From contig JAFTGN010000050.1 in the NCBI GenBank assembly GCA_017457865.1, forward strand, positions 1-34,062: a stretch of 34,062 nt of DNA. The letters are read 5' to 3'. Below, piece after piece: positions 1 to 29,226 of the stretch. The position numbers and the translations under genes were made by a program. Position 1 is the first letter of the stretch. Every line of letters starts with the position of its first letter. This DNA comes from Lachnospiraceae bacterium. GTDB taxonomy: Bacteria > Bacillota > Clostridia > Lachnospirales > Lachnospiraceae. Below the pieces are notes generated by a model. That model was not told the DNA's origin, searched no databases, and was given only the letters and a program-made list of their open reading frames with translations.

Positions 1-330
1 GGATCATTCCGACAGAGTGCTGATGTTACCAATTGATGACAGTCAACAGTAATGAGGCAGAGGAGTAGGATCGATAGATGTGTACAGAGAAGGGGTCATG
101 TGCTGAGAGGCTCCACACGGACAGGATTTGAAGGTAGCTGCTGAACTGAATTTCCGAACGGAACGCAGAGTTGTATGTTCTTATTAAGAGATTCCGGTTA
201 GTCCCCGTTATCGGTCACAAGGGAATCGGAGCATAGAAGTATAGCAGAATATCAGGCTCCCGTTCTAAAATGAAGGTGGTACCGTGCATTGATGCGCCCT
301 TTATGGATTTGTTCCATAAAGGGCTTTTTT
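1..330 (+). promoter_or_regulatory. T-box leader of valS (5' end cut by window)
   Basis: This is an untranslated leader that senses uncharged tRNA-Val and controls valS. The conserved T-box sequence AAGGTGGTACCGTG lies at 273-286 and is followed directly by an intrinsic terminator. The stem I region (about 50-145) has the AGTA bulge motif near 80 and a 3' strand reading GAAgGTAgc. GTA at 134-136 is a valine codon in the position expected for the specifier, and the thrS leader in this window has the same GAAg-codon layout with a Thr codon. The CCGTTATC block between stems II and III is at 207-214. Any promoter lies outside the window. Confidence 0.9.
296..330 (+). terminator. T-box attenuator terminator upstream of valS
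   Basis: A perfect 12-bp stem (296-307 with 313-324) with a 5-nt loop is followed by six T. It overlaps the 3' side of the T-box antiterminator sequence, so the two structures should be mutually exclusive: uncharged tRNA-Val favours the antiterminator and read-through into valS. Confidence 0.92.
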
Positions 331-3079: not shown

Positions 3080-3092
3080 GTCGAGGAAATGT

Positions 3093-3125
3093 CTGTTCAT
3101 CAAAGAAAAGATCCTTGGTGAACAG
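3093..3125 (+). other. Hairpin between valS and the ATP-grasp gene
   Basis: An 11-bp imperfect stem (3093-3103 with 3115-3125) follows the valS stop. There is no T tract after it, so it is a weak terminator at best or an mRNA stability or processing structure. Confidence 0.35.
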
Positions 3126-3217
3126 GCATTCTTCATATCGATGAATGGTGATGGATTGGAACCGGGGCAGAATACATGGGTTGTCTGTTGTGGCAGATGG
3201 CAGAAAGGGAGTATGAA

Positions 3218-4156
3218 GTGGAAAATAAAAAGACCAATTTTTACAGTTTGATTCATGAGATTTGCAGGGAGCGGGGCATTGCATGTCTGGATTATGCAGA
3301 TGGATGGGCCTTTGAATTGTCAAGAGGGGAGAAAAGCAATTTCATTTTCGGCTATCAGTTTGGCTTAAATCTGTCCTCTGTACAGCAACTGTGCAATGAC
3401 AAAGGCGCCGCAAGTGAAGCATTGGAGATCCACGGCATTCCCCATGTCCATCACATTGCCTACATGTGTCCCCCCATGCAGAAGTTTGTAGGAGGAGACG
3501 GCTGTTTTCAGGAACTTCTGGATGTGTTTGCACAGGAGGGGCGGAATCTGGTGGTGAAGGACAACGAAGGCACCGGCGGAAATCTGGTCTTTCATGTCAC
3601 TTCCCGAAAGGCGCTGGAGCAGGCAGCGTTTGCCATCTTTTCCTCTTGCCGTTCCATTGCTTTGTGTCCATATTATGACATCTTGCAGGAATACAGAGTG
3701 GTGATCTTAGACGGTGTGGTAAAAGTGATTTTCTCTAAGATCCGCCAGAGCCTGAAAGGAGATGGAGTGTCTACTCTTCGGCAGTTGTATGCCGGGTATC
3801 TGTTATCCGGTGGAAAGGCAGAGGATGCTATACCGGAAAGCCGTATGAATCAGGTATTGGCAAAAGGAGAATACTATTATCTGAACTGGAAGCATAATCT
3901 GGGACAGGGGGCAGGAGCGGTTCTGTTTACACAGGAGGAAGTACCGGAAGTGACAGAACTGGCACTACGGACAGCAAAAGCACTGTATGTGCGGTTTGGC
4001 TCATTTGATGTAATTCGAACTGCTGATGGCATTCGGATACTGGAAGTCAATACCGGTGTGATGATGGAAAATCTGGCAGGCATGAGTCAGGAAAACTATG
4101 CACTGGTCAAGTCGGTATATGGGGAAGCCATTGAGAAGATGTTGGCATCTGTTTAG
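3218..4156 (+). CDS. ATP-grasp family ligase, substrate unknown
   Basis: Protein of 312 aa with an ATP-grasp fold of the RimK / cyanophycin synthetase / glutathione synthetase type. Visible elements are the nucleotide-binding glycine loop KDNEGTGG (114-121), EYR (158-160) in the central strand, and the Mg-binding set D264, E276 and N278 (ILEVNTG). Such enzymes ligate a carboxylate to an amine or thiol via an acyl phosphate; the partner cannot be read from the sequence. GTG 3218 is chosen as start because AAAGGGAG lies at 3204-3211; ATG 3176 and ATG 3197 in the same frame have no comparable ribosome binding site. The gene follows valS by 138 nt and precedes the thrS leader, so read-through from valS is plausible. 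No peptide substrate gene is seen next to it. Confidence 0.75.
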   Translation: MENKKTNFYSLIHEICRERGIACLDYADGWAFELSRGEKSNFIFGYQFGLNLSSVQQLCNDKGAASEALEIHGIPHVHHIAYMCPPMQKFVGGDGCFQELLDVFAQEGRNLVVKDNEGTGGNLVFHVTSRKALEQAAFAIFSSCRSIALCPYYDILQEYRVVILDGVVKVIFSKIRQSLKGDGVSTLRQLYAGYLLSGGKAEDAIPESRMNQVLAKGEYYYLNWKHNLGQGAGAVLFTQEEVPEVTELALRTAKALYVRFGSFDVIRTADGIRILEVNTGVMMENLAGMSQENYALVKSVYGEAIEKMLASV

Positions 4157-4221
4157 GTGTCACCCTGACTGGGAAGTTGCGGAACGGATACAGATGGTGA
4201 AGTGTGGGTGAAATTTCCCGG

Positions 4222-11360: not shown

Positions 11361-11654
11361 TGCAAAACGCAGGAAGTTTTTTGAAGTGCTGTCTTCGTAT
11401 GCAATATGTCTTTCGAAGGCACGCTCCCGCTTCGTGTAGAATGCAGCGGCACTAATGTTTTTTATCGTAAATGCAATGCATTCACTCAAAAAACAAAGTG
11501 CCGGCTTCTACAAGAGCCTTCTTAAGACATATTTGCCTTACTTGCCAGCACTGATGAAAGTTTTTGAGCGTTTTGCAATTCAGGAAATTTTCCTGCTGTA
11601 CTTGTGAAATTTTGAGGAAGAAGGTGTCCGGGTAAACACATTTTGCAAGTACAG
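11361..11654 (+). repeat. Hairpin element, copy A (between yraN and pgeF)
   Basis: This fills the 343-nt gap between yraN and pgeF. It begins 3 nt after the yraN stop. Nested arms are TGCAAAACGC (11361-11370) with GCGTTTTGCA (11568-11577); AGTGCTG (11385-11391) with CAGCACT (11546-11552); the conserved GCAATATGTCTT / AAGACATATTTGC core; and an apical AATGC/GCATT stem. A further stem of about 15 bp (11596-11610 with 11640-11654) follows. It shares the core with copies B, C and E but lacks their 18-bp mobile ends. Confidence 0.85.
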
Positions 11655-11701
11655 ATAAAAATTTGCTAGATTGTTATAAAGAATCGAGGAGAAGGAGAGG
11701 A

Positions 11702-12568
11702 ATGAAACTGGACTGGAATCGGAAGACGAAGGCACTGCCTATTGCATGTAAGGAAGGGGATGTGCCCTATCTGTATTTTCCGCTGTTGGAAGAAACCGGG
11801 TTGGTGGTGCATGGGTTTTCTACAAAACTGGGCGGTGTCAGCGAAGGATGTTATGCTACCATGAATCTGAGAGTGAATTCGGAGGATGAGAGAGCCAATG
11901 TGGTGGAAAACTACAGGAGAATTGGTGCTGCCATTGGTTTTGATGTGGAGAATGTGGTGTTAAGTGACCAGACCCATACCACCAATATCCGGGTGGTCAC
12001 AGAAGCAGATGCAGGAAAAGGGTTGTTTGTGCCAAAGGATTACGAAGACATAGACGGACTGATCACCAATGTGCCGGGGCTGACACTGGCTACCTTTTAT
12101 GCAGACTGTGTGCCGCTGTATTTTGTAGATCCGGTACATGGAGCCATTGGATTGTCTCACTCTGGCTGGAGAGGGACGGTCAATCAGATGGGAGCCTGTA
12201 CTGTTGCAAAGATGCAGGAGACCTTTGGCTCTGATCCGGCGGATCTGCTTGTGTGCATCGGCCCTTCTATTTGTCAGGATTGCTATGAGGTCAGTGAGGA
12301 TGTGGCAGAGGCATTTCAATCGGCTTTTCCACAGTGGCAGTCTGAGATTGTAAAGCCGGGCGCGAGAGAAGGGAAGTATCAGCTGGATTTGTGGAAGACC
12401 AATGAACGGATTTTACTAGAAGCAGGTATCAGACCAGAGCATCTGGCTGTTACCAATATCTGTACGAAGTGTAATTCGGACTTACTCTATTCTCATCGTG
12501 TGATGGGCAGTCAGAGAGGCAATCTGGCCGCATTTTTGGGATTGAAATCATCGAAGCAGTATATGTAA
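11702..12568 (+). CDS. pgeF: PgeF/YfiH family (laccase-domain) protein
   Basis: Protein of 288 aa of the DUF152 multicopper-oxidase-like family. Members act as purine nucleoside phosphorylases or adenosine deaminases in biochemical work, and E. coli YfiH/PgeF is linked to peptidoglycan precursor fidelity; the exact role here is open. The zinc ligands fit H92 (SDQTHTTN), C136 (YADCVPLYF) and H153 (LSHSGWRGT). IGPSICQDCYEV and NICTKCNSDLLYSHR are further family signatures. ATG 11702 follows GGAGAAGGAGAGG. It is the last gene of its operon, separated from yraN by hairpin copy A and followed by a strong terminator. Confidence 0.9.
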   Translation: MKLDWNRKTKALPIACKEGDVPYLYFPLLEETGLVVHGFSTKLGGVSEGCYATMNLRVNSEDERANVVENYRRIGAAIGFDVENVVLSDQTHTTNIRVVTEADAGKGLFVPKDYEDIDGLITNVPGLTLATFYADCVPLYFVDPVHGAIGLSHSGWRGTVNQMGACTVAKMQETFGSDPADLLVCIGPSICQDCYEVSEDVAEAFQSAFPQWQSEIVKPGAREGKYQLDLWKTNERILLEAGIRPEHLAVTNICTKCNSDLLYSHRVMGSQRGNLAAFLGLKSSKQYM

Positions 12569-12640
12569 TCTGCAAGTATGGGTCAGGATTGGGAATCAGC
12601 GGTAGTTCGGGAACCAATCTTGAGTGGATTTTGTAAAAAG

Positions 12641-12701
12641 AAAACCGTCTTTTTTAGAAGAGAAGCAGTTTGTGCGTTTCTTCTGAAAAGGCGGTTTTTT
12701 T
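12641..12701. terminator. Bidirectional terminator between pgeF and prs
   Basis: A long stem (12641-12663 with 12679-12698, small mismatches) is followed by a T run on the plus strand (12695-12701). On the minus strand the same stem ends in a T-rich stretch. It serves both converging genes. Confidence 0.9.
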
Positions 12702-12772
12702 ACAATGACGTGCAAGCAGTGTTTTGTTTACAGACAGTTGCCTGCAGTACAGTTTGATGTCATGTATATGAA

Positions 12773-13954
12773 TTATTTTCCCTGATACTGGCGGATCAGA
12801 TTTTGAATTCGTTCGGTGGAATCCATGAATCCGTTGATGGATACATCATGATTCAGGGTGTTGATGATGGCAGCTACATACTTGCTCACATCTGCCTCTA
12901 AGTACCATGGCTTGGTGAACAGTTCCGGATTGCGGTAGTTCAGGTTGGTGGTGATCACATAATCTAAGTATCCCTTGTTGTAGAACTCATCAAATTTCTC
13001 GAATCCATCAGTGAACATACCAAAGGTACAGCATACGATGACCTTGGATGCCTTGCGCTCTTTCAGTGCCTTGGCAGTGTCTAACATACTTTCACCGGAT
13101 GAAATCATATCATCTACGATCAGTACGGTCTTTCCTTCTACGCTGGAGCCTAAGAACTCATGGGCCACGATTGGGTTTCTGCCGTTGACCACAGTAGAGT
13201 AGTCACGTCTCTTGTAGAACATACCCATGTCTACTCCTAAGTTATTTGCCAAATATACAGAACGGTTCATGGCACCCTCATCCGGGCTGATGACCATCAG
13301 ATGCTCCTTGTCAATCTTCAGATCCGGTACATTGCGGAACAATGTCTTGATGAAGTGGTAAGGAAGCAGGAAGTTGTCAAAGTCATGTAACGGGATGGCA
13401 TTCTGTACACGAGGGTCATGGGCATCGAAGGTAATGATGTTGCTGACTCCCATATCGATCAGTTCCTGTAATGCCATGGCACAGTCTAAAGATTCTCTCT
13501 TGGTTCTCTTGTGCTGGCGGCCTTCATAAAGGAATGGCATGACCACATTGACACGGTGCGCAGTGGCAACGCTGGCACCAATCACACGCTTCAAATCCTG
13601 ATAATGGTCATCCGGGGACATATGGTTGGTAAATCCACAGATACGATATGTCAGGCTATAGTTCATCACATCTACCATGGCGTACAGGTCAGTACCACGT
13701 ACAGATTCATTCAGTACGCATTTTGCCTCGCCGGAACCAAAACGGGAGCATTTCAGATCCAACAGATAGGAGTCTGCATCATATCCACGGAATTCCAGGC
13801 TGGACTGCTTTAATTTCAATGCCTCTGTGTCATTGCGACGGAAGTTGACAATGTGTTCATTGACTTTGGTGGCAAGGTCAGTGCAGCTCTCTAAAGCGGC
13901 AATCTTCAGAGGCGCAATCGGAATGGTGTTCTCAAAAGTGTAATCGTTAGACAT
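12773..13954 (-). CDS. prs: Ribose-phosphate pyrophosphokinase (long form)
   Basis: Makes PRPP from ribose 5-phosphate and ATP for purine, pyrimidine, His and Trp synthesis. At 393 aa it is clearly longer than the usual 310-320 aa enzyme, with an N-terminal extension and insertions. Still present are the ATP-site region GRQHKRTKRES, FDAHDPRVQNA, and the PRPP-binding loop VLIVDDMISSGESM. The allosteric KRR-type region is modified (YKRRDYSTVVNG). The start is the second ATG (13954) because GGAGG overlaps the first, four codons upstream. It is transcribed alone from the promoter at 14000-14028. Confidence 0.92.
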   Translation of the reverse strand: MSNDYTFENTIPIAPLKIAALESCTDLATKVNEHIVNFRRNDTEALKLKQSSLEFRGYDADSYLLDLKCSRFGSGEAKCVLNESVRGTDLYAMVDVMNYSLTYRICGFTNHMSPDDHYQDLKRVIGASVATAHRVNVVMPFLYEGRQHKRTKRESLDCAMALQELIDMGVSNIITFDAHDPRVQNAIPLHDFDNFLLPYHFIKTLFRNVPDLKIDKEHLMVISPDEGAMNRSVYLANNLGVDMGMFYKRRDYSTVVNGRNPIVAHEFLGSSVEGKTVLIVDDMISSGESMLDTAKALKERKASKVIVCCTFGMFTDGFEKFDEFYNKGYLDYVITTNLNYRNPELFTKPWYLEADVSKYVAAIINTLNHDVSINGFMDSTERIQNLIRQYQGK

Positions 13955-13999
13955 ATTTTCCTCCATTGCTAGACGGGCTAGACAGTATTTTCCTTAATA

Positions 14000-14028
14000 T
14001 TTATAACACTTGTCAAGGGATTGCGCAA
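14000..14028 (-). promoter_or_regulatory. Sigma-A promoter of prs
   Basis: Read on the minus strand: TTGCGC (complement of 14023-14028), 17-nt spacer, TATAAA (complement of 14000-14005). It gives a leader of about 40 nt. Confidence 0.7.
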
Positions 14029-14105
14029 GTCGTGAAAAGAAAAAAGTCGAAAAACCCACGAAAGTAACAGGAATAAAAAAGCTTTCCCCGAAATTTTTGT
14101 CGCAC

Positions 14106-14134
14106 TTGTCCTTTTAGGGTTCCTATGTTATACT
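14106..14134 (+). promoter_or_regulatory. Sigma-A promoter of the DUF512-der-plsY-gpsA operon
   Basis: TTGTCC (14106-14111), 17-nt spacer, TATACT (14129-14134). It diverges from the prs promoter. Confidence 0.7.
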
Positions 14135-14281
14135 TTAAGATGATTTCGTAATGCAGACAGAAATTCTGTGGGTGGGATTCCATGAGGATGTTGGCAGAAA
14201 AGGATGTTTGCCTGCGGCTGGATCGAAACAGCGCAGTTACGATGGTTGAGAGTATAGAGATTGCGAAGAACAGGGAGCAAT

Positions 14282-15649
14282 ATGAAAAAAGAACAAGGAC
14301 ATCGGATTGCCCAGGTCAAGGAAGGTTCCATTGCAGAAGAACTGGAAGTGGAAGTGGGAGATGTGCTGTTGCAGATCAATGACCAGGTGGTGGAGGATGT
14401 ATTCGATTATGAATTTTTATGCAGAGATACCTATCTGGAAGTGGTGATTCGAAAGGCAGATGGAGAAGAATGGCTGCTAGAGGTAGAAAAGGGGGAAGAA
14501 GAGGAACTGGGACTGGAATTTGAAAGCAGTCTCATGTCTGATTATCGTTCCTGCACCAACAACTGTATCTTTTGTTTCATTGACCAGATGCCGCCGGGGA
14601 TGCGGGAGACATTGTATTTCAAGGACGATGACACCAGACTATCCTTTTTGCAGGGCAATTATGTGACATTGACCAATCTAAAGGACAAGGACATTGACCG
14701 GATCATCCGATACCGGTTAGGCCCCATCAATATATCGGTGCATGCCACCAATCTGGAACTGCGTAAGAAGATGCTGCACAACCGGTTTGCCGGGGAGCTG
14801 TTACAGAAAATTGACCGGCTGTATGAGGCAGGCATTGAGATGAATGGGCAGATCGTATTGTGCAAGGGAATCAATGACGGTGCGGAACTGGAACGGTCAC
14901 TGTCGGATCTGAGTAAATATGTGCCGGTGATGGAAAGCTTGTCGGTGGTGCCGGTAGGATTGACCCGGTACCGGGAAGGACTGTATCCGCTGGAACCTTT
15001 TGAAAAGGAAGATGCCCGTGCCGCACTGGAAATCATTGAGAAGTGGCAGCAGAAATTTCTGGCAGAGTATGGCATACGGTTTGTCCATGCCAGTGATGAG
15101 TTTTATATTGTGGCAGAGCGTCCCATTCCCCCAGAGGAAGAGTACGAAGGTTATATCCAGCTGGAAAATGGAGTGGGGATGGTACGGCTGCTGTTAGATG
15201 AAGTGACAGAGGCACTTTTCAGGTTAGAGCCGGATGACAGGCAGGTGCATGTGTCTTCTGTGTCGGGACTGTTGGTGGCACCATTTTTGCAGCAGATTTC
15301 AGAGCAGATTCAGGGACGGTTTCCAAATGTGCGGCTGGATGTGCATCCCATTACCAACCACTTTTTTGGAGAACGGATCACGGTTACCGGTCTGATTACC
15401 GGGCAGGATCTGATTGCCCAGTTAAAGGGAAAGGATTTAGGGGAAAAACTGTTGATTCCCATCAATATGCTCCGCAGTGGAGAGACGGTATTTTTGGATG
15501 ATATTACAGTGGCAGAGGTAGAAACTGCTTTACAAGTTCCGGTGGATATTGTAAAATCAAGCGGGCAGGCTCTCGTCTCAGCAGTGACAGGAACTGTCAT
15601 ACAGGAGGACACAGAATCGTATCCGCCTTATGAGCTGGAAAGCTTATAA
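14282..15649 (+). CDS. DUF512 radical SAM protein with PDZ domain
   Basis: Protein of 455 aa of the COG1625 family. The N-terminal PDZ-like domain (about 5-75, SIAEELEVEVGDVLLQIND) is followed by a radical SAM Cys cluster C91-x3-C95-x2-C98 (CTNNCIFCF), a partial TIM barrel, and the DUF512 C-terminal region (about 285-445). Such proteins are expected to bind a 4Fe-4S cluster and S-adenosylmethionine; the reaction is unknown. ATG 14282 is preceded by GGGAG; the frame opens 7 codons earlier without a good ribosome binding site. The stop is 27 nt before der, and this linkage to der is frequent in Clostridia, which hints at a role in ribosome or RNA modification. Confidence 0.88.
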   Translation: MKKEQGHRIAQVKEGSIAEELEVEVGDVLLQINDQVVEDVFDYEFLCRDTYLEVVIRKADGEEWLLEVEKGEEEELGLEFESSLMSDYRSCTNNCIFCFIDQMPPGMRETLYFKDDDTRLSFLQGNYVTLTNLKDKDIDRIIRYRLGPINISVHATNLELRKKMLHNRFAGELLQKIDRLYEAGIEMNGQIVLCKGINDGAELERSLSDLSKYVPVMESLSVVPVGLTRYREGLYPLEPFEKEDARAALEIIEKWQQKFLAEYGIRFVHASDEFYIVAERPIPPEEEYEGYIQLENGVGMVRLLLDEVTEALFRLEPDDRQVHVSSVSGLLVAPFLQQISEQIQGRFPNVRLDVHPITNHFFGERITVTGLITGQDLIAQLKGKDLGEKLLIPINMLRSGETVFLDDITVAEVETALQVPVDIVKSSGQALVSAVTGTVIQEDTESYPPYELESL

Positions 15650-15676
15650 GACATTGCAGATAGAACAGGAGGAACC

Positions 15677-17005
15677 ATGAGTAAACCAATCGTTGCCGTG
15701 GTAGGACGACCAAATGTAGGCAAGTCTACATTGTTTAACGTGCTGGCAGGCAGTAAAATTTCAATTGTAAAGGACACACCGGGTGTAACCAGAGACCGTA
15801 TTTATGCGGAGTGTAACTGGCTGGATAAGAATTTTACCTTAATTGATACAGGCGGTATCGAGCCGGAAAGCGGAGACATCATCCTGTCCCAGATGCGGGA
15901 GCAGGCACAGATCGCCATTGATACGGCAGATGTGATCATCTTTCTGGTGGATGTACAGCAGGGCTTGCAGGATGCAGATGCCAAGGTGGCGGATATGCTG
16001 CGCCGTTCCCGGAAACCGGTGATCCTCACTGTCAATAAAGTAGACAGTCTGGAAAAATACATGGCAGATGTGTATGAGTTTTACAATCTGGGAATCGGCG
16101 ATCCCATGCCCATCTCCTCTGTCAATCGTCTGGGGCTGGGTGATCTGCTGGATGCAGTCATTGAGAAGTTTCCGGAAGGTGCCGAGACGGATTTAGAGGA
16201 TGACAGACCGAAGATCGCAGTGGTAGGAAAGCCAAATGTGGGCAAATCTTCCATTATCAACAGATTGACAGGGGAAAACCGTGTGATCGTATCTGACATC
16301 GCCGGTACCACCAGAGATGCCATTGATACAGACATTGAGTGGAATGGCAGAGAATATGTGTTTATCGATACAGCCGGACTGCGCAGAAAGAGTAAGGTCA
16401 AGGAAGATTTAGAGCGATACAGCATCATCCGTACCGTCAGCGCAGTGGAACGTGCAGATGTGGTGGTCATCGTCATTGATGCAGTAGAAGGGGTTACAGA
16501 GCAGGATGCCAAGATTGCCGGTATCGCCCATGACAAAGGCAAGGGCATCGTCATTGCTGTGAATAAATGGGATGCCAAGGAAAAGGATGACAAGACCATT
16601 TACCGTTTCACAGAGGAAGTGCGCAAGATTCTGTCCTTTATGACCTATGCGGAAATCGTCTTTATTTCGGCTAAGACCGGACAGCGTCTGAACCGTCTGT
16701 TTGAAGTGATCGATATGGTCATTGAAAATCAGAACCTGCGTGTCCAGACCGGTGTGCTCAATGAGATTCTCACAGAAGCAGTGGCCATGCAGCAGCCGCC
16801 TACAGACAAGGGCAAGCGTCTGCGCATTTACTACATGACACAGGTGTCTGTGAAGCCCCCTACCTTCGTCATGTTTGTCAATGACAAGAATCTCATGCAT
16901 TTTTCCTATACCCGGTACATTGAAAATAAGATTCGGGATACTTTTGGGTTCAGGGGAACGGCAATTCATTTTATTGCAAGAGAACGAAAAGAAAAGGATC
17001 AGTAA
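15677..17005 (+). CDS. der: Ribosome-associated GTPase Der (EngA)
   Basis: A double-GTPase of 442 aa required for 50S subunit maturation. The first G domain has GRPNVGKST (10-18), DTGG and NKVD. The second begins at GKPNVGKSS (184-192) with DTAGL and NKWD. The C-terminal KH-like domain (about 355-440) ends in [16 protein letters not shown], as usual for the family. ATG 15677 follows AGGAGG (15668-15673). It lies between DUF512 and plsY in a tight operon. Confidence 0.97.
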
Positions 17006-17020
17006 GACGGAGGCGTGACA

Positions 17021-17671
17021 ATGCACACAATAGGAATTCGTATCCTGCTGTTGGTAGTAGGGTATTGTTTTGGATTGTTTCAGACAGGATATTTATATGG
17101 TAAGGCACATGGCATTGACATTCGGACACAGGGAAGCGGCAATTCCGGTGCCACCAACAGTCTTCGGGTGCTGGGAAAGAAAGCCGGTATCATCGTGCTG
17201 TTGGGAGATTGTTTCAAATGTATGATTCCCTGTCTGATTGTCAAACTGCTGACGGCACGCTATATGCCGGAATACACCTATCTGTTTATGATGTATATGG
17301 CACTGGGTGTGACATTGGGGCACAATTTCCCATTTTATATGAACTTTCATGGGGGCAAGGGAATTGCCTGCATGGCAGGTATGATTCTGGCATATGACTG
17401 GAGAATGACACTGGTATGTGCTGTGGTTTATTTCAGTCTGGCATTCCTCACAAGGTATGTGTCTCTGTGTTCCATCGTGCTGGCAGTGCTCATGTTTGGA
17501 TTGACGGTACTGGCAGGACAGATGGGCTGGTTAGGACGTATGTCCGGGGCAGTAAAGATGGAACTGTATGGGATCACATTCGTCATAGCGGCACTGTCCA
17601 TCTGGCGGCATAGAGCCAATATCAGGCGGCTGTTAAACGGAACGGAGAACCGTCTGGGTCAAAAAAAATAG
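17021..17671 (+). CDS. plsY: Acyl-phosphate:glycerol-3-phosphate acyltransferase PlsY
   Basis: Integral membrane enzyme of 216 aa that acylates sn-glycerol 3-phosphate from acyl phosphate, the first step of phospholipid synthesis. Motif 1 is GSGNSGATN (38-46), motif 2 is GHNFPFYMNFHGGKGIA, and motif 3 is RYVSL; several hydrophobic segments flank them. ATG 17021 is preferred over the in-frame GTG 17015 because GGAGG (17009-17013) has correct spacing to it. It starts 15 nt after der. Its substrate is made by GpsA, encoded next. Confidence 0.94.
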   Translation: MHTIGIRILLLVVGYCFGLFQTGYLYGKAHGIDIRTQGSGNSGATNSLRVLGKKAGIIVLLGDCFKCMIPCLIVKLLTARYMPEYTYLFMMYMALGVTLGHNFPFYMNFHGGKGIACMAGMILAYDWRMTLVCAVVYFSLAFLTRYVSLCSIVLAVLMFGLTVLAGQMGWLGRMSGAVKMELYGITFVIAALSIWRHRANIRRLLNGTENRLGQKK

Positions 17672-17673
17672 GG

Positions 17674-18072
17674 TAGACAATTGTGAAACTATGACACCGA
17701 ACGCCTTTCATCAAAATTTATATTTGTGTATGCAAAACGCAGGAAGTTTTTTGGAGTGCTGTCTTCGTACGCAATATGACTTTTTCAGGCACGCTCTCGT
17801 CTTCGAATCATTCGTAAGAATGATTAAAACAGTAGCGGATACTAAGTCATTCTGAGACATACAGTCTCCGAATGACAAGTACCGACGTTTTCAAGAGCCT
17901 TCAAAAAACATAGTTGCCTTCCTTGTCGGCACTAATGAAAGCTTTTGAGCGTTCTTTTGAAAGCCATAGTTGCTTTCTTTGTCAGTACGTAAATAGATTT
18001 TTGACCTTATAAATATAAATTCTAATGTACAGGTTGTTTTGGGGTCTGATCAAAGAGTTTCACAATTGTCTG
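17674..18072 (+). mobile_element. Hairpin element, copy B (between plsY and gpsA)
   Basis: This occupies the 428-nt gap inside the plsY-gpsA operon. Ends are TAGACAATTGTGAAACT (17674-17690) and its complement AGTTTCACAATTGTC (18056-18070), 15 bp identical. Inside are AGTGCTG (17755-17761) with CGGCACT (17927-17933), the shared core, and an apical double stem GTCATTC/GAATGAC (17846-17852, 17870-17876) enclosing GAGAC/GTCTC (17854-17858, 17864-17868). No clear target duplication is left. The right end reads in frame into gpsA. Confidence 0.88.
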
Positions 18073-18099
18073 TCAATTATGATAAAAAGAGGAGAAGAT

Positions 18100-19101
18100 A
18101 TGGCAAGTATTAGTATTATAGGCACTGGAACATGGGGGATTGCTCTGGCGATTCTCTTACATCGCAATGGACATCAGGTGACTGCATGGTCTAAGTTTCC
18201 GGAGGAGATTCAGGCACTGGATACAACCAGAGTCCATCCCAATTTAAAGGGAGCAGAGATTCCGGCACAGATTGTATTTACATCTGATTTACAGCAGGCA
18301 TGCACCGATCAGGATATGCTGGTGTTAGCAGTGCCTTCTGTGTACACCAGAGAGACGGCAGCTGCGATGCGCCCATATGTGGCAGAAGGACAGATTGTAG
18401 TCAATGTGTCGAAAGGAATTGAGGAGTCTACTTTGAAGATTCTGACAGAGCAGATTGAAGAAGAGATTCCACAGGCACAGGCTGCCGTATTGTCCGGTCC
18501 CAGTCATGCAGAGGAAGTGAGCGTAGGCATTCCTACCATCTGTGTGGCAGGTGCCCATAAGAAGGAAGTGGCAGAACTGGTACAGGAGTACTTTATGTCT
18601 CCTGTATTCCGGGTTTATACCAGCCCGGATATGCTGGGCATTGAGATTGGCGGTGCACTGAAAAATGTGATTGCGTTGGCTGCTGGTGTGGCAGACGGTC
18701 TGGGTTGTGGGGACAATACCAAGGCGGCACTGATCACCCGTGGGATTGCGGAGCTGTCCAGATTGGGTGTGAAGATGGGGGGAAAGGCAGAGACATTTTC
18801 CGGTCTGACCTGTACCGGTGATCTGATCGTTACCTGTGCCAGTGTACACAGCCGTAACCGCAACGCTGGTGTATTGATTGGAAAAGGATATACCATGGAA
18901 GAAGCCATGAAGGAAGTAAACATGGTGGTAGAAGGGGTGTATTCTGCCAAGGCTGCACTGGCGTTGAGTAAAAAATATGAGGTATCTATGCCAATCGTAG
19001 AGGCAGTAAATAAAGTACTGTTTGCAGGACAGCCTGCCAGAGAAGCATTGACCGAATTGATGAACCGAGTGAAGACAACTGAAGTTCCCTGGGAAGAATA
19101 A
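18100..19101 (+). CDS. gpsA: Glycerol-3-phosphate dehydrogenase [NAD(P)+]
   Basis: Reduces dihydroxyacetone phosphate to sn-glycerol 3-phosphate, the substrate of PlsY; 333 aa, cytoplasmic. N-terminal Rossmann fold with GTGTWG (8-13), catalytic K188 in GALKNVIALAAG, and the substrate-site motif LTCTGDLIVTC with the HSRN loop. ATG 18100 follows GAGGAGAAG. The open frame extends upstream to 18025, but those 25 codons are the right end of hairpin element B and are not part of the enzyme. Confidence 0.96.
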   Translation: MASISIIGTGTWGIALAILLHRNGHQVTAWSKFPEEIQALDTTRVHPNLKGAEIPAQIVFTSDLQQACTDQDMLVLAVPSVYTRETAAAMRPYVAEGQIVVNVSKGIEESTLKILTEQIEEEIPQAQAAVLSGPSHAEEVSVGIPTICVAGAHKKEVAELVQEYFMSPVFRVYTSPDMLGIEIGGALKNVIALAAGVADGLGCGDNTKAALITRGIAELSRLGVKMGGKAETFSGLTCTGDLIVTCASVHSRNRNAGVLIGKGYTMEEAMKEVNMVVEGVYSAKAALALSKKYEVSMPIVEAVNKVLFAGQPAREALTELMNRVKTTEVPWEE

Positions 19102-19120
19102 TCCGGGGTAAAGACAAAAG

Positions 19121-19215
19121 AGGCAATCGCAAACAGGGACATGAGAAAACCGATGCCAGTTTCCAAAAAGGAGAGGGGCAGGTGTACATCATGAAAACTG
19201 TTTCGGTTGCCTGCC
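19121..19215 (+). other. Inverted repeat / possible terminator after gpsA
   Basis: AGGCAATCGCAAACAG (19121-19136) is nearly complementary to CTGTTTCGGTTGCCT (19198-19212). GGCAGG (19177-19182) can alternatively pair with CCTGCC (19210-19215), which is followed by TTT. It may be a weak terminator or an attenuator before the MutS-like gene. Confidence 0.4.
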
Positions 19216-19258
19216 TTTGTATGAGGCGGGTAGAAAATAAGGAATAGAAAGGATTTGT

Positions 19259-20956
19259 ATGGAACAGTACATGATATATATTGGAGGAATTGTTGTGGTG
19301 TTTGGATGGTTGATTTACCAGACCATCCGCGCCGGGAAAGAGCGGAAACGCCGTCTGTTAGAAAGGATCCGCAGTGAGTTTGGGACATATGCCAACCGGG
19401 AATATGAATATGATGATTTTCACAGCATTTCCCATTACTTTGAGAAGAAGCACAAAAACAGAGGGGATCTGTTTACCATAGACGATATCACATGGAACGA
19501 TCTGGATATGGATCAGGTCTTTCTGACCATGAACACTACCAGATCCAGTATCGGACAGGATTATCTGTATGATCTGCTGCGCAGACCCAGCTTTGACCAG
19601 GCAGAATTGCAGGAGCGTGACCGTCTGGCCACCTTTTTTGACAGTCACACAGAGGAGCGGGAGCATTGCCAGATGCTGTTGTCAGAGGTAGGCTATACCA
19701 GAAAGATTTCCCTGATGGATTATATCGACAACATCCGGACACTGGAACAAAACAGCAACCTGCCCCATTACCTGTGTATCGGGTTACTGGTGGCATCTGT
19801 GGCGTTGCTGGCTGTGAATCCGGAAGTGGGCGTGCTGTTATTGATCGGTTCTCTCATTTACAACGTGTCTAGCTACCTGCGGGAAAAGGGAAGGGTAGAA
19901 AGTTATTTTATGTGTATCCAGGCAATCGTCCGTCTGGTACAATGCAGCGATAAACTGAAAAAAATGGAAAGTCCGGAACTGGCAGAGTATGTGGGACGGC
20001 TGCAGAATGCTTCTTCTGTGTTCCAGTCTTTGAAACGGGATGCAGACCTGATGGGTTCTCCCAGTCAGGTCAATGGCAGTATCATCGAGGCATTTTTAGA
20101 TTATGTGCGAATGATGCTCCATGTGGATTTGATCTGCTACAACAACGCTCTGCGGAAAATCCAGCCTCATATGGAGGACGTGATGACCATGTGGGAGACC
20201 ATCGGAGCATTAGAAGCGGGCATTGCCATTGCTTCTTTCAGAAAGGCACTGCCCATGAGCTGCAAACCGGAATTTACAGCAGAAAACCGGCTGCAAATGA
20301 AAAATGGCTACCATCCGCTGATCAGCAAGCCGGTGGCAAATACACTGGAAACCTATCGTCCGGTACTGCTGACCGGTTCCAATGCGTCTGGTAAGTCCAC
20401 CTTCTTAAAGACCGTTGCCATCAATGCCATCCTGGCACAGACCATTGACACGGTGCTGGCACAGGAATACGAAGCACCGATGTATCGCATCTATTCCTCT
20501 ATGGCACTGCGGGATGACCTGAGTACCAATGAAAGTTACTACATGGTGGAAATCCGTTCCCTGAAACGGATCATGGATGCAGGAAAGAACAAAGAAAGCA
20601 AAGTCATGTGCTTTGTAGACGAGGTACTCCGTGGCACCAATACGGTAGAACGGATCGCAGCTTCCGCCAAGGTACTGCAAAAGCTGTCACAGGATGGGGT
20701 CATGTGCTTTGCCGCCACCCATGACATCGAGCTGACACAGCTGTTGGAAAAATGCTATGAAAATTATCACTTTACGGAAGATATCGTAGATGGAGACGTA
20801 CAGTTCAGTTACCGCCTCCACAAAGGAAGAGCCACTTCCAGAAACGCCATCAAGCTGCTAGGCATGATGGGATATGAGGAACAGGTGATCAAAGAGGCAG
20901 AACAGACCGCAAACCACTTCTTAGAAAGCGGAGAGTGGAAGTTGATGGGATTGTAA
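19259..20956 (+). CDS. Membrane-anchored MutS-family ATPase (MutS domain V only)
   Basis: Protein of 565 aa with only the ATPase part of MutS and no mismatch-recognition domain. One hydrophobic segment lies at the N-terminus (about 4-22) and a hydrophobic hairpin at about 168-205 (YLCIGLLVASVALLAV...VGVLLLIGSLIYNV). Walker A is TGSNASGKST (372-381); the signature and Walker B region is STNESYYMVEI...MCFVDEVLRGTNT, and the switch is FAATHDIEL. It belongs to a group of MutS-related proteins common in Clostridia and Bacteroidetes whose function is not established. ATG 19259 has the modest site GAAAGGA. The last 60 bases are partly duplicated at 23533-23561. Confidence 0.88.
   Translation: MEQYMIYIGGIVVVFGWLIYQTIRAGKERKRRLLERIRSEFGTYANREYEYDDFHSISHYFEKKHKNRGDLFTIDDITWNDLDMDQVFLTMNTTRSSIGQDYLYDLLRRPSFDQAELQERDRLATFFDSHTEEREHCQMLLSEVGYTRKISLMDYIDNIRTLEQNSNLPHYLCIGLLVASVALLAVNPEVGVLLLIGSLIYNVSSYLREKGRVESYFMCIQAIVRLVQCSDKLKKMESPELAEYVGRLQNASSVFQSLKRDADLMGSPSQVNGSIIEAFLDYVRMMLHVDLICYNNALRKIQPHMEDVMTMWETIGALEAGIAIASFRKALPMSCKPEFTAENRLQMKNGYHPLISKPVANTLETYRPVLLTGSNASGKSTFLKTVAINAILAQTIDTVLAQEYEAPMYRIYSSMALRDDLSTNESYYMVEIRSLKRIMDAGKNKESKVMCFVDEVLRGTNTVERIAASAKVLQKLSQDGVMCFAATHDIELTQLLEKCYENYHFTEDIVDGDVQFSYRLHKGRATSRNAIKLLGMMGYEEQVIKEAEQTANHFLESGEWKLMGL
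20894..20922. repeat. 29-bp duplication source at the end of the MutS-like gene
   Basis: Matches 23533-23561 with one mismatch. In the second copy it is joined directly to sequence from 21166 onward, so it forms the left edge of a duplicated flank carrying an internal deletion of about 243 bp. Confidence 0.85.
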
Positions 20957-20960
20957 AACA

Positions 20961-21265
20961 ATCATTCCGGACGCCTTTTATCAAAATTTTCAATGGCTTG
21001 CAGTTGGAAACGCAATTTTTGTATTTGACGGATACCAGCGTACGCAATATGTCTTTCGAAGGCACGCTCCCGCTTCGGTGAAAACGTAACGGATACTAAC
21101 CTTTTTGTTCGCTATTTGCTCCAAAAAGCAAGTACCGACGTTTTCAAGAGCCTTCTTAAGACATATTTGCCTTCCTTGGTATCCGTTTTACATGAGATCA
21201 GGCGTTTCCAACTGCCTGATTTATTTTGATGAAAAGGCTGTGTTTTGGAAAAGAGTGTTACGATG
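20961..21265 (+). repeat. Hairpin element, copy C (after the MutS-like gene)
   Basis: This fills the gap after the MutS-like gene. Nested arms: ATCAAAAT (20980-20987) with ATTTTGAT (21223-21230); CAGTTGGAAACGC (21001-21013) with GCGTTTCCAACTG (21202-21214), 13 bp perfect; ACGGATACC (21028-21036) with GGTATCCGT (21178-21186), 9 bp perfect; then the shared core and an apical CTTTTTG/CAAAAAG stem. The outer stems have a different sequence from copies A, B and E but occupy the same places. The ends are diverged and no TIR or TSD is visible. Confidence 0.85.
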
Positions 21266-21335
21266 TCCATCAGAGTGGGTTTGGGCAAAAGTCTAAGAAT
21301 AGACTGTATAAGAGGAAATGATGCGTAAGGAACGA
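21166..21335. repeat. 170-bp direct repeat, left copy
   Basis: Pairs with 23560-23729 (6 mismatches by eye in 170). It runs from the right arm of hairpin copy C to the first seven codons of the MATE gene. The left copy leads into a truncated recombinase-like frame instead of MATE. The two copies bracket the XRE/AlbA_2 cassette. Confidence 0.93.
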
Positions 21336-21642
21336 TATGAAACCGAGCGCAAAAAGCTGACAGAGGAAGTTCATATCTGCGAACAGGGAATCAGAGAGTA
21401 TAACGAAAACACCCGCAGTGCGAACTGGTTTGTCAGGCTGGTTGATCAGTATGCGGATTTTGAAGAACCTGCGGAAGTGGAAAAAGAACATAAGTGTAAG
21501 GAAAAATTATGTTACTTATCTTCATCGCAAGGAATCCGGGTGGCAGAAAGCCTATAAAGCGAAGATCAAGGCAGAGAAGAAAGTAAAGATTGAAACACTG
21601 AAAGAAGAGATTCAGCAGGAAGATCAGAATAACGGGATCTAA
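21321..21642 (+). pseudogene. Broken C-terminal fragment, probably of a large serine recombinase
   Basis: The first codons (MRKER) are a duplicate of the MATE start. From about 21336 the sequence becomes a charged helical segment (ERKKLTEEVHICEQG, then ANWFVRLVDQYADFEE) that resembles the C-terminal coiled coil and DUF4368 region of large serine recombinases. The frame is then broken: the first frame stops at 21557, while a second frame (to 21642) carries a Lys-rich end (KAYKAKIKAEKKVKIETLKEE). No catalytic domain is present. The recombinase assignment is by resemblance only; the chimeric and frameshifted state is directly visible. Confidence 0.5.
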
Positions 21643-21782
21643 AAGCATGGATTCGGGGTTGAAAACTAGCCAAAATCGTCGATAATGGTGATTGATAAAT
21701 TCAATTAGCGATTGATTGTTGTTCTTGCTTGTGGTATGCTGTTCTCGTGCACTGTATGCCCGAAAGAAAGAGGATAATAACG

Positions 21783-22031
21783 ATGGCACGTTCATATAAT
21801 AAACTTTGGCACAGACTGATCGATCTGAATATGACGAAGGGAGAATTGCGCCGGAAGTCCGGCATCACGACTAATGCTCTGGCGCAACTTTGGAAAAACG
21901 AATCGGTTCCTATTCACACGCTTGAAAAGGTCTGTATGGCTTTAGATTGCGGTTTGGAGGATATTGTGGAAATCTTTCCGGATGAGGAACTGAAAGAAGT
22001 CGATCAGGGAAAGGATGACAGCCATGACTGA
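21783..22031 (+). CDS. Small XRE/Cro-type HTH regulator
   Basis: Protein of 82 aa that is essentially one helix-turn-helix domain: LWHRLIDLNMTKGELRRKSGITTNALAQLWKNESVPIHTLEKVCMALDCGLEDIVEI. ATG 21783 follows AGAGGA. Its stop overlaps the start of the next gene (ATGACTGA, 22024-22031), so the two are translationally coupled and the HTH probably controls the pair. It lies inside the repeat-flanked cassette. Confidence 0.88.
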   Translation: MARSYNKLWHRLIDLNMTKGELRRKSGITTNALAQLWKNESVPIHTLEKVCMALDCGLEDIVEIFPDEELKEVDQGKDDSHD

Positions 22032-23415
22032 AGAGCAAATCAGGAAAATGTTGAATGACGGCGAAGGCTTCACCGTCGAATATAAAGAGTGTGTGAACAG
22101 TCTGAATGACTCAGTCTTTGAGACGGTCGCATCCTTTTCCAACCGTTACGGCGGTCATATCTTACTCGGTGTGAAAGAGGTAAATCACAAAGGTGTGGTT
22201 ATCGGTGTGAACCGTAAGGCCGTACCGTCGATGAAAAAGAATTTCATCAATATGCTGAACAATCCGGATAAGATCGCTCCGTCGCTCTATCTGACATTGG
22301 AAGAGATCGAGATCGACGGAGAACTTGTGCTCTGGGTCTATGTTCCGGTCAGCTCACAGGTGGAGTTTTGCGATAAGAAGATCTTTGATCGCAACGGTGA
22401 CGCAGATCAGGACATCACAAAATCCGTGGATCTTGTAGCAAATCTATACAGCAGAAAATCGTCTTCCTATCATGAGAGGAAGATATTCCCTTATGCGACA
22501 ACAGAGCATCTGCGTATGGAGCTTTTGCCTCGTATCAGACAGATGGCCGTTACCAAGAGGCCGGATCATCCGTGGAAAGACATGGATGATATGAAGCTTT
22601 TGAGAAACGCTGGTCTTTATGAAGAAAATATCCTGACTGGTGAGAAAGGATTCAATCTGGCTGCTATCCTTCTCCTTGGAAAAGACGAAGTGATTCAGTC
22701 CGCCTGTCCGGGATATCGCACAGACGCAATCTACAGGGATGAGCATCCGGATCGATACGATGACCGCCTGATCGTTGAGAAGAACCTGATTGAAAGTTAT
22801 GACGAACTGATGGGCTTTATCGCCAAACATACAAACGATAAGTTCTTCCTGATCGATAATGTAAATACCAGTGTCAGGGATATCATCGCCAGAGAAGTCG
22901 TCAGCAATATCCTTGTTCACAGAGAGTATGCCAGCGCATTTCCAGCCAAGCTGATCATCGAACCTGACCGGATCATGACAGAAAACTGGAACCGCGCACA
23001 ATACCCGGGAAAGATCGACCCGGAGGCGTTTACTCCATATCCAAAGAATCCGATCCTGGCCAAGTTCTTTGTAAACATTGGAAGAGCCGACACGCTGGGT
23101 TCCGGTGTGAGAAACCTTTACAAGTATACCAAGATTTATTGCGGCGGCAAGCCGGATCTGGAGGAAGGCGATGTGTTCCGTATCTTCGTTCCGCTGAAGA
23201 CTGACGAAAACGGGAACGTGAATAAGTATAAGCTGACCGACAGACAGCAGTCGATACTGGAGCTGATCAGAAATAACCCCAAGATTCAGACAGAAGAGAT
23301 CGAAAAGGAACTTGAAATATCCAGAAGCACTGTGCAAAGGGAGATTCAGGAAATCAAGAAAAAGATGTCGCTGGTCTACAACAAGAAGACTTTATCATGG
23401 GATTTGAGCGAATAA
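22024..23415 (+). CDS. AlbA_2 (Schlafen-like) ATP-binding protein
   Basis: Protein of 463 aa. The N-terminal AlbA_2 domain (about 5-125) has the signature VEYKECVNS...VASFSNRYGGHILLGVKE. The central-to-C-terminal GHKL-type ATPase (HATPase_c_4) has REVVSNILVHREY and GSGVRNLYKYT. A winged HTH closes the protein (about 400-445, LTDRQQSILELIRNNPKIQTEEIEKELEISRSTVQREI). Proteins of this build act as DNA-binding regulators or in phage and plasmid conflict; the role here is not determined. ATG 22024 has GGGAAAGG 9 nt upstream and is preferred over ATG 22015, which sits on that site. Codon choice (CGx Arg, ATC Ile) differs from neighbouring genes, in keeping with transfer. Confidence 0.88.
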   Translation: MTEEQIRKMLNDGEGFTVEYKECVNSLNDSVFETVASFSNRYGGHILLGVKEVNHKGVVIGVNRKAVPSMKKNFINMLNNPDKIAPSLYLTLEEIEIDGELVLWVYVPVSSQVEFCDKKIFDRNGDADQDITKSVDLVANLYSRKSSSYHERKIFPYATTEHLRMELLPRIRQMAVTKRPDHPWKDMDDMKLLRNAGLYEENILTGEKGFNLAAILLLGKDEVIQSACPGYRTDAIYRDEHPDRYDDRLIVEKNLIESYDELMGFIAKHTNDKFFLIDNVNTSVRDIIAREVVSNILVHREYASAFPAKLIIEPDRIMTENWNRAQYPGKIDPEAFTPYPKNPILAKFFVNIGRADTLGSGVRNLYKYTKIYCGGKPDLEEGDVFRIFVPLKTDENGNVNKYKLTDRQQSILELIRNNPKIQTEEIEKELEISRSTVQREIQEIKKKMSLVYNKKTLSWDLSE

Positions 23416-23417
23416 AG

Positions 23418-23454
23418 GCAAGCTTCATAGCAAGCATCATAAAATGAAGCTTGC
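23418..23454 (+). terminator. Hairpin after the AlbA_2 gene
   Basis: Perfect 11-bp stem GCAAGCTTCAT (23418-23428) with ATGAAGCTTGC (23444-23454), directly after the stop. There is no T tract, so termination would be weak. AAGCTTC recurs at 23469-23475. Confidence 0.5.
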
Positions 23455-23532
23455 ATGAGGCCTCCCTGAAGCTTCCTGTGAGACTTGTTGATCCAGTCGG
23501 GTTTTTAGTACAGGTCAGCAGGTGATTCACAG

Positions 23533-23729
23533 GAGGCAGAGCAGACCGCAAACCACTTCTTTGCCTTCCTTGGTATCCATTTTACATGAGATCAGGCGTT
23601 TCCAACTGCCTGATTTATTTTGATGAAAAGGCTGTGTTTTGGAAATAAGTGTTACGATGCCCATCAGAGTGGGCTTGGGCAAATGTCTAAGAATAGACTG
23701 TATAAGAGGAAATGATGCGTAAGGAACGA
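23533..23729. repeat. Right copy of the duplicated flank (29 bp + 170 bp)
   Basis: 23533-23561 repeats the MutS-like gene tail (20894-20922). 23560-23729 repeats 21166-21335, that is the right arm of hairpin copy C plus the upstream region and start of MATE. The join at CTT/TTT deletes about 243 bp relative to the left side, including most of the hairpin. It supplies the ribosome binding site and start codon of the intact MATE gene. Confidence 0.93.
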
Positions 23730-25124
23730 ATTGATTATTTGTCTTTTATTCGGGATGGAAGGGAACTGGGGATTCGGCAGAAGGCAGAGCTGGTGGTGAA
23801 ACTGAGTCTGCCTACCATCATGGCACAGCTGACTTCGATCCTCATGCAGTATATTGATGCGTCTATGGTGGGGCATATGGGGGCGAATGCTTCTGCCTCC
23901 ATCGGACTGGTGTCTACCACTACATGGCTGTTTGCCAGCCTGTGTTCTGCTGCAACGGCAGGATTTTATATTCAGGTGGCGCACCACATCGGGGCGAAGA
24001 AATATGAGGAAGCCAGAGGGGTGATGCGCAAATCTTTTCCGGTGGTACTTGCAGTGACACTGGTGATGATGACCATCGGCATCTTGATCTCTGGCAGATT
24101 GCCGGGGTGGCTGGGTGGAACAGTAGAGATTCAGAGAGATGCCAGTTTGTATTTTCTGATTTATATCTGCTTTCTGCCTGTATTTGCCTGTAACCGGCTG
24201 GCAGGAGGCATGCTCCAGTGCAGTGGAAATATGAAAACACCGGGACTGCTCAATTCCCTGATGTGTATTCTGGATGTGATCTTTAATGGACTGTTCATCT
24301 TTCCTACCAGCACCCATCAGATCGGCAGTGTGTCCATCACCCTGCCAGGACTGGGGCTGGGTGTAAAAGGGGCGGCACTTGGCACCGGTGTAGCAGAGTT
24401 GGTCATCGCCTGCATGATGCTGTACAGTCTGTGTGTCCGTTCCGAACTGCTTCACCCGCGGAAGGAACAGGGAAACTGTGACACCAAAGGGGTGCTTCGA
24501 AGTGCAGCAACCCTTTCCCTGCCCATAGCGCTGGAAAATCTGATCACATGCAGTGCTTATGTGATGGTCACCAGAATCGTGGCACCACTTGGCGCCATCG
24601 CCATCGCTGCCAATTCCTTTGCGGTGACTGCGGAAAGTCTCTGCTATATGCCGGGATATGGCATCGGAGAAGCCGCCACCACACTGGTAGGACAGAGTGT
24701 GGGAGCAAAACGCAGAGAGATGATCAGAAGCTTCGCCCGTATGACCACAGCCTTCGGAGTAGTCATCATGACAGGGATGGGAGTGTTCATGTACTTTGCC
24801 GCTCCCTTTATGATGGGATTGCTGACACCGGAAGAATCGGTGCGTACCCTGGGAACAGGGGTACTGCGGATCGAAGCCTTTGCAGAGCCACTGTATGGCG
24901 CTTCCATCGTGGTATCCGGTGCTCTGCGGGGCGCAGGGGATACCCTGATGACCAGCGTACTGAACTTTGGCAGTATATGGCTGGTCAGACTGCCTCTGGG
25001 GTTCTTTTTGGCAAGGCAGTATGGACTGACTGGGGTGTGGATTGCCATGTGTATCGAACTTTGTGTGCGGGGGACACTGTTTTTGACCAGACTGTTTCGG
25101 GAAAGATGGATGAAGAAACTTTAG
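23715..25124 (+). CDS. MATE family multidrug/cation exporter
   Basis: Inner-membrane antiporter of 469 aa with about 12 hydrophobic segments in two homologous halves. The N-terminal half begins PTIMAQLTSILMQYIDASMVGHMG and the second half has the corresponding PIALENLITCSAYVMVTRIVAPLGAIAIAANS, both typical of MATE (DinF/NorM) proteins. It probably exports cationic drugs in exchange for Na+ or H+; the substrate is unknown. ATG 23715 is taken because AGAGGA at 23705-23710 fits better than for ATG 23712. Its stop codon lies within the target duplication of element E, and before that insertion HIT followed about 20 nt downstream. Confidence 0.93.
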   Translation: MRKERIDYLSFIRDGRELGIRQKAELVVKLSLPTIMAQLTSILMQYIDASMVGHMGANASASIGLVSTTTWLFASLCSAATAGFYIQVAHHIGAKKYEEARGVMRKSFPVVLAVTLVMMTIGILISGRLPGWLGGTVEIQRDASLYFLIYICFLPVFACNRLAGGMLQCSGNMKTPGLLNSLMCILDVIFNGLFIFPTSTHQIGSVSITLPGLGLGVKGAALGTGVAELVIACMMLYSLCVRSELLHPRKEQGNCDTKGVLRSAATLSLPIALENLITCSAYVMVTRIVAPLGAIAIAANSFAVTAESLCYMPGYGIGEAATTLVGQSVGAKRREMIRSFARMTTAFGVVIMTGMGVFMYFAAPFMMGLLTPEESVRTLGTGVLRIEAFAEPLYGASIVVSGALRGAGDTLMTSVLNFGSIWLVRLPLGFFLARQYGLTGVWIAMCIELCVRGTLFLTRLFRERWMKKL

Positions 25125-25470
25125 ATTAGACAATTGCGAAACTATGATACCGAACGCCTTTCATCAAAATTTTATGTTTGCATGGAAGGTTAACATCTAT
25201 ATGTGCTGTCTTCGTACGCAATATGTCTTTCGAAGGCACGCTCTCGCTTCGGTGTGGAGTGCAGCGGCACTAATGTTTTTTGTCGTAAATGCAACGCATT
25301 CACTCAAAAACAAAGTGCCGGCATCCACAAGAGCCTTCTTAAGACATATTTGCCTTCCTCGTCAGCACATATCTGGATTTCATTCATAGTCCTGCAAACA
25401 TAAAATTTCTGATGCGCAGGCTGTTTTGGAGTCAGATCAAAGAGTTTCGCAATTGTCTAAAAACTTTAGA
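25116..25470 (+). mobile_element. MITE-like hairpin element, copy E, with TSD (between MATE and HIT)
   Basis: The element proper is 25126-25460 (335 bp). Ends are perfect 18-bp inverted repeats: TTAGACAATTGCGAAACT (25126-25143) and its complement (25443-25460). It is flanked by a perfect 10-bp direct repeat AAACTTTAGA (25116-25125 and 25461-25470), a target-site duplication. Inner nested arms are AAATTTTATGTTTGCA (25167-25182) with TGCAAACATAAAATTT (25393-25408), 16 bp perfect, and ATGTGCTG (25201-25208) with CAGCACAT-type (25363-25370), then the shared core. No transposase is encoded, so it must be moved in trans. Confidence 0.93.
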
Positions 25471-25488
25471 TAGGACAAAGGAGTCTGT

Positions 25489-29116: not shown

Positions 29117-29226
29117 ATGAGAGGTGTTTAGGCAATTGTGAAACTCTTTGAGTAGACCAAAAACAGCCTGTACATGATGAAAGGCGTTCGGTATCATAGT
29201 TTCGCAATTACCTAAATCAGAGGTGT
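29117..29226 (-). mobile_element. Miniature element F (88 bp) with 11-bp TSD
   Basis: The element proper is 29128-29215. Ends TTAGGCAATTGTGAAACT (29128-29145) and AGTTTCGCAATTACCTAA (29198-29215) are inverted repeats with three mismatches, matching the ends of copies B and E in the opposite orientation. The interior contains only the two subterminal blocks (GAAAGGCGTTCGGTATCAT and CAGCCTGTACAT) and none of the hairpin core. Flanks ATGAGAGGTGT (29117-29127) and ATCAGAGGTGT (29216-29226) form an 11-bp target duplication with one mismatch. Confidence 0.9.

Follow-up and report, generated by a model that had tools for sequence, protein, structure and literature searches.

Dispersed hairpin repeats of a Lachnospiraceae genome with the features of non-autonomous mobile elements and a conserved folded tip

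The subject of this study is a set of long hairpins in a 34,062-nucleotide stretch of DNA from a Lachnospiraceae bacterium (contig JAFTGN010000050.1 of assembly GCA_017457865.1, positions 1 to 34,062), hereafter the window. Four hairpins, copies A, B, C and E, lie on the forward strand between co-oriented genes. The stem strings and pairings quoted for them in the initial annotation were found in place, and for each copy none of 100 dinucleotide shuffles folded as stably as the native sequence (z = -6.5 for A, -6.2 for B, -7.0 for C and -10.5 for E). Copy A (11361..11654) comprises a hairpin from 11361 to about 11577 followed by a second hairpin, with a conserved domain at 11399-11541; like copy C (20961..21265, conserved domain at 21042-21175), it has no intact terminal repeat. 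Copies B (17674..18072) and E (25127..25459) span terminal repeat to terminal repeat and hold the conserved domain at 17769-17922 and 25216-25358, respectively. Copy E is further flanked on the forward strand by 11-bp target-site duplications, the left at 25116..25126 and the right, 1 base off the terminal repeat, at 25461..25471. A covariance model whose seeds included C and E and excluded A and B recovered A at 89.9 bits and B at 34.5 bits (E-value 2.6e-6).

These four copies are real, but the set first proposed was far from complete. The window also contains a half copy (23560..23704, forward strand), made of the right arm of C with the downstream flank of C and 96% identical to 21166-21310, and an 86-bp bare element (29129..29214, strand not assigned) with both terminal repeats and the outer module and without the apical domain. 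The genome of the window, a 2.6-Mb draft in 114 contigs (G000), was compared with a sister genome (G002) and with a further genome of the same genus (G001). Blast searches of G000 returned 50, 63 and 45 matches for copies A, B and C, respectively, which rules out a four-copy curiosity. As a separate observation, the 145-bp direct repeat formed by 21166-21310 and 23560-23704 (96% identity) flanks about 2.25 kb with a Schlafen/AlbA_2 gene, and this stretch is absent from the G002 contig.

Many full elements share the end TAGRCAATTGYGAAACT in inverted orientation. With up to 2 mismatches allowed, it is present at 97 + 93 sites in G000 (about 190; control 1 + 2) and at 61 + 68 sites in G002 (control 0 + 2), and at no site in G001. 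Locus L131, from the metagenome-assembled genome RUG702, and contig G002:C206 gave identical match coordinates and were counted once. In the stretches analysed, pairing by ends yielded 53 elements in G000 and 24 in G002, the elements measuring 69 to 450 bp and a few weak end pairs among them being possibly due to chance. When 21 of the paired elements were folded, bare outer forms, forms of about 213 bp and longer forms with extra apical hairpins were seen, together with a layout in which core modules are placed directly inside the ends. Across the family, 67 of 397 genomes carry the end at up to 1 mismatch, several of them ten times or more; single matches may be chance, as the backwards control fires in 28 genomes, nearly always once. 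Several contigs of G000 (e.g. C1, C9, C16, C84 and C104) start or stop in a hairpin repeat or at most about 200 bp away from one. Thus, the assembly was probably broken by the repeats and the copies are undercounted.

The initial suggestion that the hairpins might serve mobility is backed by the terminal inverted repeats, by target-site duplications and by empty sites. Of 70 elements tested, 26 lie between exact direct repeats of 8-12 bp, while shuffled flanks gave a mean of 0.45 and a maximum of 4 in 500 trials; the elements so flanked range from 79 to 334 bp and include copy E. Filled and empty sites were found between G000 and G002 in both directions, the site of G000:C15:9845-10166 being empty in G002 and that of an element on G002:C172 being empty in the window. 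At 4176..4180 (strand not assigned) the window has an empty site where G002 has a 79-bp element with a direct repeat. The site of copy B is empty in G002, with flanks too diverged for a duplication to be defined. At G000:C4:1196-1850, an element plus about 340 bp of adjoining DNA is absent from G002. Carriage by phages or plasmids was considered and rejected: one copy searched against plasmids and one against phages were each without match, and two exact core patterns had no match in viral contigs, the second pattern being so strict that it fits only 11 of 444 loci.

The genome of a relative, G345, contains an insertion sequence whose ends are similar. Six copies of 1744-1745 bp were found there, one end being identical to TAGRCAATTGYGAAACT and the other differing from the family repeat at 2 or 3 of 17 positions; direct repeats of 10-12 bp, judged by eye, flank them. 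The transposase of 487 residues matches DUF772 (PF05598) at 54.1 bits (cut-off 23.1) and DDE_Tnp_1 (PF01609) at 22.3, just under the cut-off of 23. Its score against the IS1182 model of NCBIfam (NF033551), 82.8 bits, is far under the cut-off of 270, and the enzyme is by sequence at most IS1182-like. Relatives of the transposase were found in 5 of 16 genomes tested, one of them at only 28% identity. At L266 of G345 (636-4134), two copies of this insertion sequence stand in tandem with 10 bp of repeated target sequence between them.

The hairpin tip forms a structured domain about 80-125 nt long. In an alignment of 18 sequences it is laid out as an outer stem, an internal loop, P1, a small side hairpin, P2 with a two-base bulge, P3, a second internal loop and P4; the structure model is the predicted fold of a single sequence. 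Asymmetric parts of the tip are kept across genera: the CGCT..CGCT side hairpin, the CGTA.CGG bulge and the CATAA/TAA internal loop. A covariance model (R1) matched the tip in 156 of 397 Lachnospiraceae genomes (138 of 334 genera), in a search that applied stricter filters and scored up to 8 candidates per genome; assignment to the family was made from named gpsA relatives. In a phylum-wide sample R1 matched 5 of 398 genomes, four belonging to Lachnospiraceae and one lying outside, and 79 gpsA loci (1.4 Mb) gave no match to the covariance model. At the gathering score Rfam had no match for the hairpins in the window or in 10 loci, and at a lax threshold 5 loci gave sub-threshold matches only, so that a known Rfam RNA was rejected for the loci tested. 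Apart from the hairpins, a T-box leader (RF00230) lies at window positions 43-304, upstream of a 916-residue open reading frame (93.9 against a gathering score of 93). Literature searches returned no description of the hairpin family in the titles and the beginnings of the abstracts of the papers listed, which does not prove that none exists.

That the fold itself is kept, as first proposed from four copies, is borne out by a larger alignment of 43 sequences. In these matches 90.4% of cells are paired, against 32-43% with partners slid; the covariation score is 0.655 compared with 0.188+-0.010 for shuffles, two-sided change is seen at 36 of the 39 pairs, and 431 cells show two-sided changes against 22 with one-sided changes. 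As the 43 matches were fitted to the covariance model, the fitting favours pairing. An alignment made with MAFFT agreed, with 85.1% paired cells, a covariation of 0.546 against 0.195, and 152 two-sided against 13 one-sided changes. A conserved fold with covariation, as expected of a structured RNA, is thus present.

Selection on an RNA strand should tolerate G-U pairs, but not A-C mismatches. With the structure fixed, G-U and A-C were equally frequent in the hairpin domain (18:19 and, overall, 38:38). A pipeline of MAFFT and RNAalifold gave 202 G-U and 7 A-C for 30 6S RNA sequences of Lachnospiraceae, and 27:31 for the hairpin domain. The beta elements of G000 and G002 gave 19 G-U and 17 A-C. 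In hairpins aligned to themselves the counts were 280 and 205 (p 0.0008 when summed; apical zone 35:84, outer zone 245:121), but these are dominated by mismatches that copies inherited jointly. Hence, the analysis was moved to pairs that are mostly Watson-Crick, where the ratio was 18:15 in alpha elements and 19:17 in beta elements. The initial annotation had placed the hairpins between co-oriented genes, from which an RNA role was proposed. The placement holds for the four copies of the window, but orientation is mixed over 94 copies in two genomes; among co-directional genes, 41 elements point along and 28 against them (p 0.15). Taken as a whole, the strand test gives no support to an RNA role.

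Comparison of orthologous sites in G000 and G002 showed how the elements change. At G000:C61:80709-80955 and G002:C163:15521-15765 the flanks are the same and the element is inverted in place, 237 of 245 positions being identical when one is reversed; the remaining orthologous elements compared keep their orientation. Elsewhere, orthologous sites differ by an apical insert about 100 bp long, the apex is lost, or an element of another type occupies the same site. The site of copy C is occupied in G002 by an element with like outer arms and an apex of another type. Thus, interiors are exchanged as blocks, and the stem differences within the window, first read as compensatory change, may partly be block replacement and not pair-by-pair compensation, even if the fold is kept.

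On balance, the hairpins appear to be non-autonomous mobile elements resembling miniature inverted-repeat transposable elements (MITEs), many of which carry a conserved tip domain that would act as folded DNA. Reading the conservation at the level of DNA is most likely, short of proof. The elements would have been moved in trans by a DUF772-type transposase like that of G345, since lost from G000 or left unassembled there. Pairing could be held at the DNA level by template switching, in which a strand folds back during replication and one arm is copied from the other, and selection would preserve the asymmetric bases of the tip, some protein presumably reading the folded DNA.

Several observations, gathered in this and the next two paragraphs, weigh against such a reading. 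The symmetry of the strand test is not uniform. In one sequence per locus (34), core pairs lean to G-U (26 against 13 A-C, p 0.053) and outer pairs to A-C (4 G-U against 17, p 0.007). The reverse strand of the domain, folded with an automatic structure, gave 58 G-U and 20 A-C. The raw counts for 30 alpha elements of G000 and G002 were 70 and 18, with 24 of the 70 G-U falling in one pair whose usual state is G-T, and the mostly Watson-Crick pairs of alpha and beta elements, oriented by neighbouring genes, gave 37 and 22 (p 0.067). These leanings suggest that some selection at the RNA level is possible. The core and the gene-oriented counts would fit a functional RNA on the element, transcribed with the operon to attenuate or stabilise it, to be processed or to yield a small RNA, as would the conserved asymmetric motifs with their one-sided side hairpin and the fact that, of the 79 copies for which both neighbouring genes were called, 69 sit between co-directional genes. 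However, equal G-U and A-C counts overall, where 6S RNA shows a strong excess in the same pipeline, the mixed orientation, the copy inverted in place, the exchange or loss of interiors at orthologous sites and the lack of an Rfam match in the loci tested make this explanation fairly unlikely. A weak RNA component is possible, nothing like that of 6S RNA.

The arms, too, are less than perfectly kept over short times, as 10 orthologous sites of G000 and G002 showed 48 one-sided against 12 two-sided Watson-Crick changes, 11 of the latter falling in two loci that have diverged strongly, copy C being one. Two of 12 pairs were left out of this comparison: the locus inverted in place, and copy E with G002:C173, whose duplications differ and which the set of orthologous matches does not include. 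Unpaired columns have a mean conservation of 0.73, barely above the 0.69 of paired columns. Among same-ended elements of ten other genomes, the tip motif was found in 24 of 48, all from five genomes; by the motif test the tip is absent from those of G197, G370, G125, G183 and G417, one G197 element resembling it by eye all the same. The missing half would suit a plain neutral MITE, in which template switching between inverted repeats yields the paired arms as a by-product and the tip is without a function of its own. Coupled changes of both arms, nearly without wobble intermediates, and inversion in place are what template switching predicts (PMC8794818, which names coupled arm changes and loop inversion, and PMC8604942). 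Yet template switching alone should erase asymmetric parts such as CGCT..CGCT, the CGTA.CGG bulge and CATAA/TAA, all of which are conserved between genera, and something would therefore also select the tip. A functionless tip is on these grounds unlikely, the more so in view of copies whose arms are seemingly unrelated while their inner cores stay alike.

Such copies with private arms occur in G233, G206 and G287 (8, 7 and 6 copies examined). Their inner cores are 76-80% identical between copies, a few core borders being imprecise, whereas between one copy and another the arms share 42-52% identity (40% for random sequence under lenient scoring) and the two arms of each copy match at 74-81%. 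In G383 and G214, by comparison, arms agree at 80-88% from copy to copy. At one mismatch the count of terminal repeats is zero in G233, G206 and G287, and the copies examined there lack the common ends of a MITE. A plain MITE does not explain them. They could point to a site of recombination that is recognised as a folded single strand of DNA, similar to the attC sites of integrons, where a site-specific enzyme reads the tip and private arms are free to vary. Conserved motifs on sequence-free stems and a pairing that is strand-symmetric overall are in keeping with this idea, but elements that bear terminal repeats show target-site duplications of the ordinary sort, and we regard it as improbable. 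Lastly, no relatives of the G345 transposase were found in G000, G001 or G002 among the 16 genomes tested; thus, it is by inference that we ascribe mobilisation to a G345-type enzyme.

A wider view may also be put forward tentatively, as a possible if doubtful extension of the MITE-like reading. It holds that there is a Lachnospiraceae-wide class of elements whose functional part is folded DNA, that is, a tip of about 80 nt read by a protein, on stems that are sequence-free and sometimes private to a copy. Some lineages would have packaged this tip into DUF772-driven MITEs, and elsewhere the tip might spread by a route that builds new complementary arms at each site.

Functional RNAs are usually proved by covariation, and the present family has very strong covariation without an overall wobble bias. 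It is therefore a natural test case for distinguishing RNA selection from pairing held at the level of DNA. It also points to a common folded element in many Lachnospiraceae that is mobile, swaps its modules and is able to invert in place.

The hairpin MITEs of bacteria are non-autonomous derivatives of insertion sequences. The present family resembles them in occurring in dozens of copies with terminal inverted repeats and target-site duplications and in having a like-ended insertion sequence in a relative, but differs in being mostly a hairpin of exchangeable modules, often with a conserved asymmetric tip common to many genera, and in that the copies examined in some genomes lack common ends. 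The bcr1 repeat of the Bacillus cereus group is likewise mobile and dispersed, and its secondary structure is predicted to be conserved; the likeness is one of general description, whereas the present family occurs in Lachnospiraceae and its pairing is strand-symmetric overall. Integron attC sites also conserve a fold while leaving the stem sequence free, but the elements described here have their own terminal repeats and target-site duplications. The 92 families of bacterial stem-loop repeats of PMC2267715, compared by description only, are similar as intergenic repeats with a common predicted fold. Finally, the template-switch hairpins of PMC8794818 share with the present family the coupled two-sided changes and the loop inversion, there explained by a DNA-level event; those hairpins concern RNA genes, whereas here the repeat is mobile and G-U is not in excess overall.

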